Origin: Gemmatimonadota bacterium
GTDB taxonomy: Bacteria > Gemmatimonadota > Gemmatimonadetes > Palauibacterales > Palauibacteraceae
Reading direction: 5' to 3'
DNA: 33,221 bases
NCBI GenBank assembly: GCA_027295155.1
Contig: JAPULH010000074.1
Coordinates: 1 to 33,221 of the forward strand
Shown: in pieces, positions 2,297 to 32,105 of the stretch
Position numbering within the stretch: the first letter of the stretch is position 1
How the letters are laid out: each line of letters opens with the position of its first letter
Made by a program: the position numbers and the translations under genes
The notes under the pieces: model-generated
The model's database searches: none
What the model was told of the DNA's origin: nothing
What the model saw: only the letters and a program-made list of their open reading frames with translations

Positions 2297-2302
2297 GAGC
2301 CC

Positions 2303-2359
2303 AGCAGGTCGCTGAAGAACCCATGCGCGCGACCCGCCGGGGTTATTCAGCGACCTGCT
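2303..2359. repeat. Inverted repeat between convergent genes (possible bidirectional terminator or repeat element)
   Basis: AGCAGGTCGCTGAAGAACCC (2303-2322) and GGGTTATTCAGCGACCTGCT (2340-2359) are complementary at 19/20 positions with a 17-nt loop. The right arm contains most of the stop codon of the minus-strand gene. Confidence 0.85.
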
Positions 2360-3653
2360 ACATCGTGCCGGACTCCCCTACGTAGTAGATGCGCCAGATC
2401 CGGCCGCCCTTGTCATCGGCGATGTACAGCGATCCGTCCGGTCCCTGGGCGAGTCCCGAGGGCCTGTGCGCGGCGTCGCGGGGGCTCTTCTCTCCCCCGG
2501 CGAACCCGTCGGCAAAGAGCTCGAAGCTGCCGGTCGGTCGGCCGTCAGCGAACGGGAGAAACACCACGTTGTAGCCGTCCTGGGGCAACGGTGCCCGGTT
2601 CCAGGAGCCGTGGAACGCGATGAACGCGCCGCCGCGGTAGCGCTCGGGGAAGCCTGATCCGGTGTAGAACAGGAGCGCATTCGGCGCCCAGTGCGCCGGA
2701 AACGTGAAGACGGGCTCCGTCTTGTCCGCGCACCGTCCGACCTCCTCGCCATCGCCCCCGTACTCCGGCGCCAGCACCAGGTGGCCCACCTCGGGGTCGT
2801 GATAGCAGTAGGGCCATCCAAAGTCGGCGCCGCGCTCGATCCTCACCAGCTCCTCCGACGGCTTGTGCGCGCCTGCCTCCTCGGTGAAGAGGGCCGGCCA
2901 GTTCTGGTGGAGCTGATCGCGGCCATGCTGCACCCCGTAGAGGTCGCCGGACGGATGGATCGCGAGGGCGAACGTGTTGCGAAGGCCGGTCGCGTAACGC
3001 TCGCCGTCAGCCTGTGTCTGTCCCGTCACCTGTACGTCGAAGCGCCAGATCCCGCCCCGGTTCTCCAGCTGGGGGCACGGATCCTGGCCGGGCGAGCCCT
3101 CGACGCGGTCCTCCTCCTGGCACGTGTTGGAGGGCGCGCCGATGTTGACGAACAGGTGGCCCTCATCGTCGATCAGGGCCGTCTTGGCCGTGTGCGACCG
3201 TTCCGACGGCAGCCCGGACACGATCGTGTCCGGCGGGCTGGCCGGCTGGAGACTTCCCGGCTCGTACGGATAGCGGAGCACGGCGTCGTTCGGCGCGAAG
3301 TAGAGGTGCTCGCCCCACAGGGAGATGCCCGTCCCGCCCGTGTCGCCGAACCGCTCCTCCCGGTCCGCCCGGCCGTCGCCATCCGTGTCACGGAGCGCGA
3401 GGACGCCTCCCGCAGCAGCGCTGTCGCGGCTCGTTCGCGTGGCCACGAAGATATCGCCGTTCGGCGCCACGACGAGGTGGCGGGCCTGTCCGACCGAGTC
3501 GGCCACCACATGGGCGCAGAAGCCCGGCGGCAGCGTGAGGCCGCCGTTGTCGGGGTCGCACGGGGGGCCGTCCTGTGCGAAGACGTCGCCGGGGCACGGC
3601 GACAGGAGAGCGATAGTGGCCAGCACGGCCAGCGAGAAATGATGCACGCGCAT
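2358..3653 (-). CDS. Secreted PQQ-dependent sugar dehydrogenase / sorbosone dehydrogenase-like beta-propeller protein
   Basis: ORF 2358..3782; the likely start is MRVHHFSLAVLATIALLSPC (3653), a signal peptide. Contains LPPGFCAHVVADSVGQARHLVVAPNGDIFVATR, TGLRNTFALAIHPSGDLYGVQHGRDQL, and AFHGSWNR...GYNVVFLPF. Confidence 0.85.
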   Translation of the reverse strand: MRVHHFSLAVLATIALLSPCPGDVFAQDGPPCDPDNGGLTLPPGFCAHVVADSVGQARHLVVAPNGDIFVATRTSRDSAAAGGVLALRDTDGDGRADREERFGDTGGTGISLWGEHLYFAPNDAVLRYPYEPGSLQPASPPDTIVSGLPSERSHTAKTALIDDEGHLFVNIGAPSNTCQEEDRVEGSPGQDPCPQLENRGGIWRFDVQVTGQTQADGERYATGLRNTFALAIHPSGDLYGVQHGRDQLHQNWPALFTEEAGAHKPSEELVRIERGADFGWPYCYHDPEVGHLVLAPEYGGDGEEVGRCADKTEPVFTFPAHWAPNALLFYTGSGFPERYRGGAFIAFHGSWNRAPLPQDGYNVVFLPFADGRPTGSFELFADGFAGGEKSPRDAAHRPSGLAQGPDGSLYIADDKGGRIWRIYYVGESGTM

Positions 3654-11832: not shown

Positions 11833-12051
11833 ATGGCTATGCTGAAGAAGGTCTGCAAGCTCTGTGAGCGCAGTATCCGGCAGGTGAACTACAAGGACGA
11901 GCACCTGCTGAGCCGCTTCGTCACCGATAGAGGGAAGATCCTTCCCCGGCGGGCGACGGGCTCCTGCGCTCGGCACCAACGCCAGATTGCGACGGCGATC
12001 AAGCGTGCTCGTTACCTGGCGCTATTACCCTACATCCGGGACTATCAGTGA
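11833..12051 (+). CDS. rpsR: 30S ribosomal protein S18 (zinc-ligand-containing form)
   Basis: [68 protein letters not shown]. The CxxC and CxxH residues are retained. Confidence 0.95.
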
Positions 12052-12106
12052 GAGGCTCCTGAAGAAGTACTAGCAGCCTGTTGATCATGGAGCCCGAGGC
12101 ACCCGG

Positions 12107-13979: not shown

Positions 13980-15512
13980 ATGGTCCGGCTGGCGCTGATC
14001 CTTGCGGCGCCGCTCTGTTTCCTTGCCGGTTGCGGCCGCTCGGACGATGACTCGGGTGGTGGGTCCGGGCCGTCGCCCGCTCGGCTGGTCGTCGGCAGCT
14101 GGCTCGAGGAGACGGGACTGCTCGTGCTCCCCCGCCGCGGCGGGAGGGCCGAGGTGCGGGCCGTGGCGGATCCCGAGCGTGTGGTATGGACAGGCGCCCG
14201 GCGGCTCCCCACGCCGGAGAGCGTGCACCCGTTCGACGCTCGCTCGATCGTCGTTCTGACCCCCGGCGGTGAGGCCTATCGCTATGTCCCCTCCGACGAC
14301 GTCTCGGAGGCTCTCGGCCGCGTCGGGACGGACCTCGAATGGAGCGCGTTCGGCGGCTCCGGGACCTTCTGGAACCGGGACGCCATCGTGGTCGTGCATG
14401 AGGGTGGTGTGCGAAGCTACGAGCCGGCCCGGCCCGTCATGTGGGCGTCACCGGCTTCCGAGGGCACCGTCGTCGCGCTCGTGGCCGGCGAGGATGGCCC
14501 GTTGCTCTGGCTGTTGGAGTCGGAGGAGGAGCCGATCGCTCTGCGCCCGCTGGCGGTCATGCCGCCGGGCCTCGTGACAGGTTGGGGCCGAAGCGCGCTG
14601 TTCCGATCGTCCGACGGTCGGGAGATCATCTCGGTTCAACTTCCAGAGCTCGAGGTCGAGCGACGTTTCGAGTTCAGGAAGCCGGTGACGGCGTTTGCGG
14701 TCTCGGCTTCCTCCCATGAGCTGTACGTGGCCCTGGCGGGTGGCCGCGTTCTGGCGGTCGCAAGGGTCGGCAACGGGCGGCGGGAGCTGGCGCGCCTCGA
14801 GGCCGATGTGACGGAGCTTCGAGCCGGCGTCTACGGTCAGCAGCTGCTCGCGTTCGACGGGGCGGTTGCATACCGGATCTCGCTCGTCGGCGATTCTCCG
14901 GTTCGTCTCGAGGTGGATTGGAGATCCGATCTGCCGTTGGGCCTGCCGAGCGGCGACGTGCTGGCATCTCGTGGGGACACGCTCCTTCTGACGCGGTTCG
15001 TCGCAGAGGGGTCGGTGGCTCGAGTGGAGCCGATCGAAGGCCCGCCCGGCGCCTGGTGGCTTGCGGTCCAGTGGGATCCCGCAGCGCCGGTCCGGCTGGC
15101 CCGTGGGGACGCCGGGGTCCGCGAGGCGGGGGAGACGGGCGATACGGCAGGCTCCGTTGCCGTCGAATCGAATGAAACCGGACAGGAGGGCGAGTTGGCG
15201 GAGGTGGAAGTTCCGGCGGCGGATTCCCTCGGCTTCGCGTTCGCCGCGCCCGCAGCCGGCTACTACGCGGTTGCTGTCGCTTCACGCACGCCGGCTGGCG
15301 TGATCGAGCTCGTGGGCACGCTCGCGCGGAGTGGCTATCCGACGGCGATCCAGCGGCGGCGGGACGACGGTGGCCAGATGTGGTACCGGGCGCTCGTTGG
15401 ACCGTACCCGGCTCGCTTGGGGGCCGATGCGGCGGCGCGGCAGCTCCGGCGCGAGCGCAGTCTGGACGCCTGGGTCACCGAGTTGACGGCCGGAATCGAG
15501 GAGGATTTCTAG
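13980..15512 (+). CDS. Putative lipoprotein: beta-propeller-like body with C-terminal SPOR-like domain
   Basis: ATG at 13980 gives MVRLALILAAPLCFLAGCGRSDDD (LAGC lipobox). The C-terminus YYAVAVASRTPAGVIELVGTLARSGYPTAIQRRRDDGGQMWYRALVGPYPARLGADAAARQL resembles SPOR. Confidence 0.7.
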   Translation: MVRLALILAAPLCFLAGCGRSDDDSGGGSGPSPARLVVGSWLEETGLLVLPRRGGRAEVRAVADPERVVWTGARRLPTPESVHPFDARSIVVLTPGGEAYRYVPSDDVSEALGRVGTDLEWSAFGGSGTFWNRDAIVVVHEGGVRSYEPARPVMWASPASEGTVVALVAGEDGPLLWLLESEEEPIALRPLAVMPPGLVTGWGRSALFRSSDGREIISVQLPELEVERRFEFRKPVTAFAVSASSHELYVALAGGRVLAVARVGNGRRELARLEADVTELRAGVYGQQLLAFDGAVAYRISLVGDSPVRLEVDWRSDLPLGLPSGDVLASRGDTLLLTRFVAEGSVARVEPIEGPPGAWWLAVQWDPAAPVRLARGDAGVREAGETGDTAGSVAVESNETGQEGELAEVEVPAADSLGFAFAAPAAGYYAVAVASRTPAGVIELVGTLARSGYPTAIQRRRDDGGQMWYRALVGPYPARLGADAAARQLRRERSLDAWVTELTAGIEEDF

Positions 15513-15545
15513 CGGACCGCTGAAGCTTTTCGGCGATCTGCTAGC
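15510..15545 (+). repeat. Stop-anchored hairpin
   Basis: TAG-overlapping stem AGCGGACCGCTGAA (15511-15524) / TTCGGCGATCTGCT pairs at 13 of 14 positions counting G-U, with a GCTT loop. Confidence 0.65.
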
Positions 15546-22810: not shown

Positions 22811-22905
22811 GCCCCAGGCCCGTGGGGCGTGAGCGCGTGAATCCCGTCAGGGCCGCGAAGGCAGCAGCGGTAAGCGCGGGAGCGTCGCCACGGTTCGCCT
22901 GGGGT
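22811..22905 (+). ncRNA. ffs: Bacterial signal recognition particle RNA (4.5S-like, small type)
   Basis: Core GTGAATCCCGTCAGGGCCGCGAAGGCAGCAGCGGTAAG matches the conserved SRP RNA domain IV. Terminal helix CCCCAGGC (22812-22819)/GCCTGGGG (22897-22904) and inner CCGTGG/CCACGG pairing. Located directly upstream of dnaX. Confidence 0.93.
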
Positions 22906-22991
22906 TCGTCGTTTCGTCTCCGGCATGGTCGCGCCGAATCGTGCCTCGGATCGTCTTTCGACGGTCCGACCTCCATCGTAGCTTGGGTTCA

Positions 22992-29140: not shown

Positions 29141-29170
29141 GGCCCGGCGTACTTCTTCAAGAGCCTTCTA
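29141..29170 (-). repeat. Stop-anchored repeat copy at the 3' end of mnmA
   Basis: Minus strand TAGAAGGCTCTTGAAGAAGTACGCCGGGCC; 26/30 identical to the copy at 32076-32105. Confidence 0.8.
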
Positions 29171-30271
29171 GACGATCACGCCCCCGCCGAGCACGACGTC
29201 GTCACGATACAGAACGGCGCTCTGTCCCGGAGTGATCGCGTTCTGCGGAAGCGCCAGATCTACCACGAAGCGCGCGGCCCCGGTCTCGACCAGGCGGCCC
29301 TCGACGATGGGCGCGCCGTGCCGGACCCGTACTCCGACCGTCGTCCCCGTCTCGGGAATCGGAGCCAGCCAATTGGCCCTCGCCGCCTCCACACGGGTTC
29401 TGGCGAGAGAGGAGCGCGGTCCCACGACGACCGCTCGCTCCCCGGGCCGGATCTCGATGACGAACATCGGCTCCGCGAAGCCGCCCGGCAGACCACGCCG
29501 CTGCCCCACAGTGAACCGGGCATAGCCGTCGTGCTCCCCGACCGTGCGGCCGTTCTCGAGAACGACGGGCCCCGGAGCCAGGGCCGGGTGGTCGTCGCCC
29601 AGATAGCGCCGGAGCACGCCCGCGTAATCGTTGTCCGGCACGAAGCAGATCTCATACGACTCCGCCTTGTCGGCGGTGCCCAGGTCCAGCGCTCGCGCCT
29701 GTCGCCGGACGTCCGCCTTCTCCATGTCTCCGATCGGGAGCAGGAGTCGCCCGATCACCTCCCGTGGGATTCCCCAGAGGAAGTACGTTTGATCCTTCCG
29801 GTCGTCCTCGGCGCGGCACAGCAGCGGCGTGCCGTTCTCGCGAGTCACGCGCGCGTAGTGCCCGGTCGCGAGGAAGTCACACCCGAACGCGTCGGCGCGA
29901 TGCAGCAGGTCGCGAAATTTCGTGAAGCTGTTGCAGCGCACGCACGGAATGGGAGTCCGGCCGGCCGCGTACTCGGAGACGAAGTCGTCGATCACGTCGC
30001 GGGTGAAGCTCTCCTCGACATCGAAGACGGTGTGCACGATGCCGAGGCGCGCCGCTACCGATCTCGCGTCGGCGATCCCCTCGAGCCCGCAGCACGAGCG
30101 GCTCGGGCCGGGCACGTCGCCGTAGCAGAACGTCTTCATCGTGAGGCCCACGACCCGGTATCCCGCTTCGTGGAGGAGTGCCGCCGCGAGGCTCGAATCC
30201 ACACCGCCCGACATGGCGACCAGAACGGAGGCTTCGCGGTGCCCCGGTGCGGTGGCGGTGGGCCCGTACAC
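29168..30271 (-). CDS. mnmA: tRNA-specific 2-thiouridylase MnmA
   Basis: VLVAMSGGVDSSLAAALL (PP-loop), SCCGLEGIADARSVAARLGI, PCVRCNSFTKFRDLL, FLATGHYARV, DQTYFLWGIPRE. Likely GTG start at 30271. Confidence 0.95.
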   Translation of the reverse strand: MYGPTATAPGHREASVLVAMSGGVDSSLAAALLHEAGYRVVGLTMKTFCYGDVPGPSRSCCGLEGIADARSVAARLGIVHTVFDVEESFTRDVIDDFVSEYAAGRTPIPCVRCNSFTKFRDLLHRADAFGCDFLATGHYARVTRENGTPLLCRAEDDRKDQTYFLWGIPREVIGRLLLPIGDMEKADVRRQARALDLGTADKAESYEICFVPDNDYAGVLRRYLGDDHPALAPGPVVLENGRTVGEHDGYARFTVGQRRGLPGGFAEPMFVIEIRPGERAVVVGPRSSLARTRVEAARANWLAPIPETGTTVGVRVRHGAPIVEGRLVETGAARFVVDLALPQNAITPGQSAVLYRDDVVLGGGVIV

Positions 30272-30287
30272 AGGCAGCAGCCTTCCG

Positions 30288-31454
30288 TTAGGTGTGGGCC
30301 ATGATTCGGGAACAAGCCCGGATCGTGGCATCGGCCGCCCGCTCGACATGTTCCCGAGTCGTTGTCGGCCCGAAGCTGTAACGGAGGGTGGCGTACTCGT
30401 CCGATCCGGCGATGCCCATCGCCTTGAGCACGTGAGACGCGGCGACGGAACCGCTGCTACACGCCGACCCGGCCGAGACCGCGATCCCGTCCAGATCCAG
30501 CGATACGAGAAGGGCGCCCGGATCGCAGTCGGGGATGCCTACGCTGAGGATGTTGGGAAGGCGCTCCGGGGCGTCGCTCGCGTGAACGGTCAGGCCGCGG
30601 ACTCCCTCTTTCAGGCGCTTCGTGAGTCGCTCCCGCAGCTCGTGCCACCGCGGCACCACCGTCGCGCGTTCCTTGACCGCGAGCCGCGCGGCGCGCGCGA
30701 ACCCCACCGCGCCCAGCGGATTCTGTGTGCCCGGCCACAACGCGCGCTCCTGCGTGCCGCCGTACGTCAGCGGTGCCAGATCCACTCCCTCTCGACAGTA
30801 AAGGAGACCGATGCCCACCAAACCTCCCAGTTTGTGAGCGGTCGCGGAGAGCAGGTCGGTGGGGATCCGTTGGACGGAAACGTCCAGCTTACCGAACGCC
30901 TGCACCGCATCGGTGTGGAGAAGAGCTCCGTGCCGGTGGGTCAGGCGCTCCACCTCGGCGATTGGCTGGACGGCGCCGACCTCGTTGTTCGCCCACATGA
31001 TGGATACGAGCGTCGGCCTGTCACCATCCTGCGCCAGTACGGTCTCGAGAACGTCCAGGCGGAGCGTCGCCGAAGCGTCTACCGGTATGAGTCGCACGTC
31101 GGCGCCCTCTTCCGCCGCGTGCCTCGCCGCACCCAGACCCGCCTGGTGCTCGACCTCCGAGAGGAGCACGCGCGGTTGCCGCCCGGCGTTGGCTCGAACG
31201 AAGCCCAGGACGGCGAGGTTGCTCGAGCTCGTGCCGCCGCCCGTGAAGTAGACCTCGCGCTTATGACAGCCGATGAGGCCGGCGAGCTCCGCGCGTGCCT
31301 CCTCGAGGCTGTGGTGCGCCCTCTGGCCGAAAGAGTGGGAACTGACCGGATTGAAGCAACAATCGAGCGCTTCCTCCATGGCCGTCCACACCTCCGGCCG
31401 CAGGGGAGCCGTAGCGGCGTAATCGAGGTAGATCGCCTGGCCTTCGGCGTACAC
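30288..31454 (-). CDS. Cysteine desulfurase (NifS/IscS-type, class V aminotransferase)
   Basis: IYLDYAATAPLRPEV, MWANNEVGAVQPI, ATAHKLGGLVGIGLLY (PLP lysine region), SAGSACSSGSVAASHVLKAMG (catalytic Cys loop). Start uncertain. Confidence 0.94.
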   Translation of the reverse strand: MYAEGQAIYLDYAATAPLRPEVWTAMEEALDCCFNPVSSHSFGQRAHHSLEEARAELAGLIGCHKREVYFTGGGTSSSNLAVLGFVRANAGRQPRVLLSEVEHQAGLGAARHAAEEGADVRLIPVDASATLRLDVLETVLAQDGDRPTLVSIMWANNEVGAVQPIAEVERLTHRHGALLHTDAVQAFGKLDVSVQRIPTDLLSATAHKLGGLVGIGLLYCREGVDLAPLTYGGTQERALWPGTQNPLGAVGFARAARLAVKERATVVPRWHELRERLTKRLKEGVRGLTVHASDAPERLPNILSVGIPDCDPGALLVSLDLDGIAVSAGSACSSGSVAASHVLKAMGIAGSDEYATLRYSFGPTTTREHVERAADATIRACSRIMAHT

Positions 31455-31692
31455 GTTCGTCGTCTCCGCGTTGTCCCGTGGCGCCCGGGGCCCGGGGGTT
31501 CCGGACGTACGGCCGCCGTGTCGAGGTGGTATTCGGTCCGCCACCGGGAGTTCCTGATGCGGCGCAGCGCGTCCCGACGGGTCGCGGCGGAGAGGGCCTC
31601 ATCGGGAAGGTTTCATCCGCGGACCGCTCCCTCTAGCTTGAGCGGCTGCTTCTCATATCGGTCATCGGCAACTCGCGCTCACACGGAGGATC

Positions 31693-32052
31693 ATGATCCC
31701 CCTTCCGACTTCACTGCCGCCTCTTCCGCCACAGGCCGCCCGCGTCTTTCGGGCTACCGTGCACGGCCTGGTCTTCGGGGACAGGGCTCGGCATCTCCTC
31801 AGCGTACGATCGGGAGAGCCGCTGATGCTCGTCCCGGATCCACCCGGCACGGCCCTCGATCAGGTGTGGGTCCACCTCCACCGTGGCGACGCGATCGGGC
31901 ATCTCCCGAACGAGATCGCCAGCTGGCTCGGGCCGTGGCTGCGGCGGGGTGGTCGGGCGACGGTTCGTCCGCTTCGTGTGGGAGACGACGGCGTGCCGAG
32001 CTGGAAGCGGCTCCTCGTCGAGGTCGCTTGCGATGGAGCCGGTCTCCGCTAA
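31693..32052 (+). CDS. Stand-alone HIRAN-domain-like protein
   Basis: FRATVHGLVFGDRARHLLSVRSGEPLMLVPDPPGTALDQVWVHLHRGDAIGHLPNEIASWLGPWLRRGGRATVRPLRV fits the HIRAN pattern (G-x-F-x-x-R, GexLxLvxeP, iGhlPneiaxxL). Confidence 0.6.
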   Translation: MIPLPTSLPPLPPQAARVFRATVHGLVFGDRARHLLSVRSGEPLMLVPDPPGTALDQVWVHLHRGDAIGHLPNEIASWLGPWLRRGGRATVRPLRVGDDGVPSWKRLLVEVACDGAGLR

Positions 32053-32080
32053 CGTGGCCCGGTCCCCGCTAACATGGCCC
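32041..32080 (+). repeat. 20-nt tandem duplication spanning the stop codon of the HIRAN-like gene
   Basis: GGTCTCCGCTAACGTGGCCC / GGTCCCCGCTAACATGGCCC; 18/20 identical. Confidence 0.9.
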
Positions 32081-32105
32081 GCCGTACTTCTTCAGCCGCC
32101 TTCTA
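32076..32105 (-). repeat. Stop-anchored repeat copy at the 3' end of the BshB1-like gene
   Basis: Minus strand TAGAAGGCGGCTGAAGAAGTACGGCGGGCC. Confidence 0.8.

Follow-up and report, generated by a model that had tools for sequence, protein, structure and literature searches.

The short repeats that lie at the stop codons of unrelated genes in the window, by which we mean the whole stretch of 33,221 nucleotides analysed here, represent either the terminal inverted repeats or other remnants of an element, and belong to a family that is spread through the bacterial class Gemmatimonadetes. Of the several explanations offered in a preliminary description of this DNA, our results bear out the one that sees the repeat as a scar left by a small mobile palindrome. 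We consider it probable that the element is a non-autonomous, MITE-like unit moved by a transposase that acts in trans on CTAG-like targets, that stop codons are sites at which its insertion is tolerated, and that the copies in the window are remnants left by deletions. This reading would provide a simple reason for finding small mobile palindromes exactly at stops: the scarce CTAG target often is a stop, and the stop is preserved.

Copies in the window, the bin and the class

As contig 195, the window belongs to a Gemmatimonadales genome bin of 1.9 Mb with a completeness of 72%. All five repeat sites reported in the preliminary description were recovered at the positions given there (Table 1), and Pfam upheld the identities of the genes that they end, namely mnmA, a PIG-L/BshB1-type deacetylase, ribosomal protein S18, a SPOR-domain protein and a glucose/sorbosone-dehydrogenase-type protein. 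Upon recomputation, the mnmA and bshB copies again agreed at 26 of 30 bases, and of the 18 core bases of the rpsR copy, 17 matched the copy at mnmA. This latter match is the one basis on which we class the rpsR copy as probably a decayed type B end. For the copy at the SPOR-domain gene, the hairpin and the CTAG on either side support membership of the family. Hence, the window contains fragments only: two solo ends, two short palindromes and one weak copy. It also holds a gene for bacterial small SRP RNA (22812-22907, + strand, 47.3 bits).

Table 1. Copies of the element in the window and the gene stops on which they lie
Copy	Position	Strand	Score and hairpin	Stop codon and gene
Solo end (type B)	29141..29170	-	16.6 bits vs end profile	Outer TAG 29168-29170, mnmA (Pfam tRNA_Me_trans)
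Solo end (type B), then second TAG 32069-32071	32069..32105	-	26.5 bits	Outer TAG 32103-32105, PIG-L/BshB1-type gene (Pfam PIG-L)
Short palindrome, both type A ends, no interior	2302..2360	.	Ends 39.8 + 19.1 bits; hairpin -40.9 kcal/mol, z -8.05	TAG 2358-2360 (- strand), glucose/sorbosone-dehydrogenase-type gene
Short palindrome between CTAG 15509-15512 and CTAG 15541-15544	15509..15544	+	Arms weak vs end profile (6.7 + 0.7 bits); hairpin -18.5 kcal/mol, z -4.3	TAG 15510-15512, SPOR-domain gene
Weak type B end	12049..12071	+	3.5 bits vs profile	Starts at TGA stop of rpsR

In sequence alone, the copies at rpsR and 15510 are weak and could, taken singly, reflect chance similarity or an artefact of base composition. 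We reject this explanation, the probability of which we regard as negligible, on the strength of copies found throughout the genome and the class. The window contains 10 matches to the pattern TGAAGAAGTACG (≤2 mismatches), where shuffles predict 0.83. The genome-wide search that the preliminary description had proposed returned copies beyond the first five: TAGMAGGYNGYTGAAGAANYMCGGYGGGYC (≤3 mismatches) is present at 40 places in the whole bin, compared to 0 for the reversed pattern. Many of the copies are found less than 400 bp from the end of a contig; assemblies break at repeats, and such positions are therefore expected. With a shorter end pattern, this bin has 49 matches, the sister bin G004 has 51 and G002 has 3; the congeners G001, G003 and G005 have none. 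The nearest named relatives of the bin are Gemmatimonadales and Gemmatimonadota bins labelled CSMAG, which we take to stand for cold-seep MAG. An exact-pattern scan of GTDB contigs returned only G004 (CSMAG_1727) and one further Gemmatimonadota bin, and the exact end pattern, being too strict, gave few matches across 43 genomes of the order. Plasmids and viral contigs yielded no match to the element.

Of 394 genomes from the class Gemmatimonadetes that were searched with a 284-base consensus, 48 contain the element; they represent 35 genera and several families. These homologs are often of full length with 69-79% identity, and the shortest matches are weak. Since two candidates were scored per genome, the copy numbers per class genome are lower bounds.

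Anatomy and fold of the element

The repeats pair as ends that face inward. The full elements defined in this way mostly measure 277-395 bp (two are of 191-194 bp) and consist of terminal inverted repeats of about 30 bp around a conserved interior with optional hairpin-shaped inserts. The ends are of two types, CAGGTCGCTGAAGAACCCTGGCGGGTC and AAGGCTGTTGAAGAAGTACGGTGGGTC, of which the latter is resembled by the mnmA, bshB and rpsR copies. Short forms of about 35-60 bp, two of them in the window, consist of two ends only. No protein is annotated in the copies. Terminal inverted repeats, a short and non-coding body and tens of copies are all features that define a MITE, although MITEs do not usually have an interior that is conserved from family to family throughout a class. 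In the interiors of L132, L330, L332, L337 and L338 small hairpins of differing sequence are exchanged at fixed places.

Sites that are filled in this bin retain scars of 20-30 bp in the sister bin. At one of these sites (L118), the scar junction has GTCGCGTT in common with the flank, a homology that we read from the alignment. Accordingly, solo ends look like deletion remnants. One 31-bp solo end (L122:3030-3073) has CTAG on both sides, and the sister bin has an empty CTAG at this position; either a deletion ended precisely at the target duplication, or the unit that moved was itself very short. In both sister bins, an element end is read in frame in the N-terminus of a DsbA-like protein (KASRSLKNSSGPRYERR; L093:2894-3676 and L126:2995-3771). 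The ortholog in L154 can be aligned only from residue 58, and the start site may have been recruited from the element or may have been called wrongly.

In the fold of an alignment of 25 copies, the terminal repeats form a stem; the other parts are a long arm on the left, a small hairpin, and an arm on the right. Standard pairs make up 95.7% of the pair cells, both sides have changed in 54 of the 70 pairs, and the covariation score is 0.502, as compared to 0.165 for shuffles and ≤0.083 for slid controls. The terminal repeats differ strongly among genera yet remain complementary. G-U pairs account for 36 of 1,746 cells (2%), which is not above expectation beside 27 A-C mismatches (1.5%). An RNA would be expected to tolerate wobble pairs, and no such tolerance is seen on either strand; the covarying molecule therefore appears to be DNA. 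We read the three-armed structure as a DNA palindrome that selection, arm-to-arm correction or the two together may maintain. The absence of wobble among the paired changes prompts the question as to whether the transposition machinery reads the shape of DNA.

Target sites and stop codons

Among 16 pairs of ends from this genus, 5 have the complete flanking 4-mer duplicated, against 1.2 expected from shuffling (P=0.003); a duplicated target is a further trait of MITEs. The consensus of the target is CTAG, with variants that include CTAA, CAAG, CTTG and CCAG; of these, the non-TA targets CTTG, CCAG and CAAG are also duplicated in full. The duplications are imperfect. Flanks of the form TA/TA occur in 17 of 33 pairs overall and in 13 of 17 copies from other genera, mostly inside CTAG. 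In these other genera CTAG is predominant, and an outer base that differs is left uncopied, which fits a 2-bp duplication of TA; the fully copied tetranucleotides of this genus favour a 4-bp duplication. Judged by these flanks, the target may be either TA within CTAG, in the style of IS630, or a 4-bp YTAR, in the style of IS5.

Statistics on stop codons were derived from 353 kb of loci around copies by use of a purpose-written codon-usage gene caller. At 24 of 95 profiled ends, the outer TAG or TAA is the in-frame stop of the incoming gene. A repeat that starts exactly at a stop is thus common, and falls short of a general rule. The stops at element edges comprise 22 TAG, 2 TAA and no TGA, and TGA ends 178 of the 275 other genes.

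The comparison of orthologous gene ends, also proposed in the preliminary description, revealed that presence of the element differs between bins and that the position of the stop codon mostly does not. Of 89 ortholog comparisons, 70 showed no shift in the codon at which the gene ends, and 78 a shift of two codons at most; the comparisons were made mostly against element-free genomes, with about seven involving an ortholog that has a recognisable end itself. Since orthologs without the element end at the same codon, the element did not create these stops, and the earlier suggestion that the repeat supplies them is mostly wrong. At the mnmA site, the sister bin G004 reads GTCTAG and the repeat is absent. 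Four outgroups without the repeat carry the same TAG stop at bshB, and in outgroup G005 the SPOR-domain gene has its stop, a TAA, at an unchanged codon position. At a convergent gene pair, this bin uses one shared CTAG for both stops, and G004 has an element between two copies of CTAG. These comparisons suggest that the element mostly arrived at a pre-existing stop and left a stop there. At three filled sites in G004 (L129, L130 and L132) the stop is TAA or TAG, as against TGA at the empty sites of this bin (L264, L259 and L255), and the middle bases of the duplicated target differ from those of the empty site. A later change of stop in one lineage is the simplest reading of these three cases.

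Outside element flanks, CTAG occurs 131 times against about 1,044 predicted from base composition, which corresponds to an approximately eight-fold depletion. Stop codons make up 26 of the 65 non-genic CTAG sites (40%) and 30% of non-genic YTAR sites. Full elements lie on a stop in 6 of 17 cases in this genus and in 10 of 25 in other genera. Because this share agrees with the availability of CTAG or YTAR at stops, an extra preference for stops is unnecessary, and we dropped it together with the idea that the element prefers gene ends as such. Availability of CTAG and loss of insertions within genes are enough to account for the stop positions.

Origin of the element and comparison with known systems

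How might such an element come to rest on stop codons? We infer that a trans-acting transposase, for which the IS630 type (TA inside CTAG) and the IS5 type (4-bp YTAR) are the likeliest candidates, would insert the element at a CTAG-like site and thereby duplicate the target. In this GC-rich genome CTAG is scarce, and gene stops form about 40% of its non-genic remainder. Insertion at a stop would keep a stop at the old position and leave the end of the gene product intact, such that the insertion would be tolerated; tolerance may in this way have shaped the distribution. Later deletions would produce solo ends and short hairpins like those in the window. A search that covered the three DDE transposase families PF13751, PF01609 and PF13546 found none of them, and hence no autonomous partner with the same ends among these families, in bins that are incomplete. 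PF01609 (DDE_Tnp_1) is absent from G000, G004, G002 and G016. Transposase genes are often lost from genome bins. The genes beside class copies are diverse, with 103 Pfam families, and no transposase is among the 25 most frequent of these.

Short palindromes at gene ends are also reminiscent of REP sequences, and GTAG REPs often give flanking ORFs their TAG stop (PMC3733652). If the repeats were GTAG-tagged palindromes of this type, moved by a RAYT (an IS200/IS605-like tyrosine transposase), their TAG would be the stop of the upstream gene; GTAG is indeed found at 8 of the 24 edge stops. We consider this explanation improbable. Y1_Tnp (PF01797) is absent from G000 and G004, which contain the most copies, and from G002, and the single Y1_Tnp genes of G016, G018 and G020 are not flanked by element ends. 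Moreover, the same inverted repeat at both ends, the target duplication and the length of about 280 bp for full elements all speak against a REP. Strong folding, covariation and position at gene ends would also suit a structured RNA or a transcription terminator that is selected at gene 3' ends and does not move. This appears to us quite improbable, given the rarity of G-U pairs described above, the majority of full elements that lie off stops, and sites that differ between sister bins. No Rfam covariance model matched over the element at E≤1.

The divergence of terminal repeats that nevertheless stay complementary, together with the failure to find a known transposase, could point to a mobile element of hairpin DNA that is recognised by its fold, in the manner of an integron attC site or of a single-stranded substrate, by an undescribed enzyme. 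We judge this very improbable, as target duplications suit ordinary DDE chemistry and arm-to-arm correction could generate such paired changes even if shape is not recognised at all. The broader proposal, that a class-wide element is recognised by its three-armed fold instead of its end sequence, is moved by an undescribed enzyme and uses stops as safe landing sites, is conceivable, though we think it unlikely. We therefore favor the MITE-like element that is mobilized in trans, and compare it with documented systems on this premise.

IS5 duplicates a Py-T-A-Pu tetranucleotide, which is mostly CTAG, with CTAA and CAAG also known (PMC5493358). The target tetranucleotides of the Gemmatimonadetes element are of the same kind; in contrast to an IS5 system, PF01609 is missing from the four bins named above. 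IS630-type elements duplicate a target TA, and a 1991 title cited in PMC2170065 reports a preference of IS630 for TA in CTAG. The Gemmatimonadetes element resembles MITEs of this type in its inverted terminal repeats, its short and protein-free body and, for most copies of other genera, its TA/TA flanks. Unlike these MITEs, it duplicates non-TA targets in this genus and has an interior that is conserved across the class. With GTAG REPs it shares short palindromes at gene ends, and differs in the ends, duplication and length discussed above, as well as in the lack of a RAYT in its richest genomes. According to the accessible passages on Coxiella, QMITE1 and QMITE2 are MITE families that overlap gene 3' ends by a few bases, and QMITE2 holds a GTAG REP within 150-190 bp bounded by repeats of 7-11 nt and variable sequence (PMC5896051). 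These QMITE passages do not report a CTAG target, in contrast to the target of the Gemmatimonadetes element. Repeats of 90 and 150 bp have been reported from Gemmatimonadota, in a paper whose accessible text does not include their sequences (PMC11237797). In light of the reports on IS5, IS630 and GTAG REPs, the phenomenon has precedents. We found no description of the element itself in the open-access literature, and what appears to be new is the family, its class-wide three-armed palindrome, and the evidence from orthologs that the stop came first.
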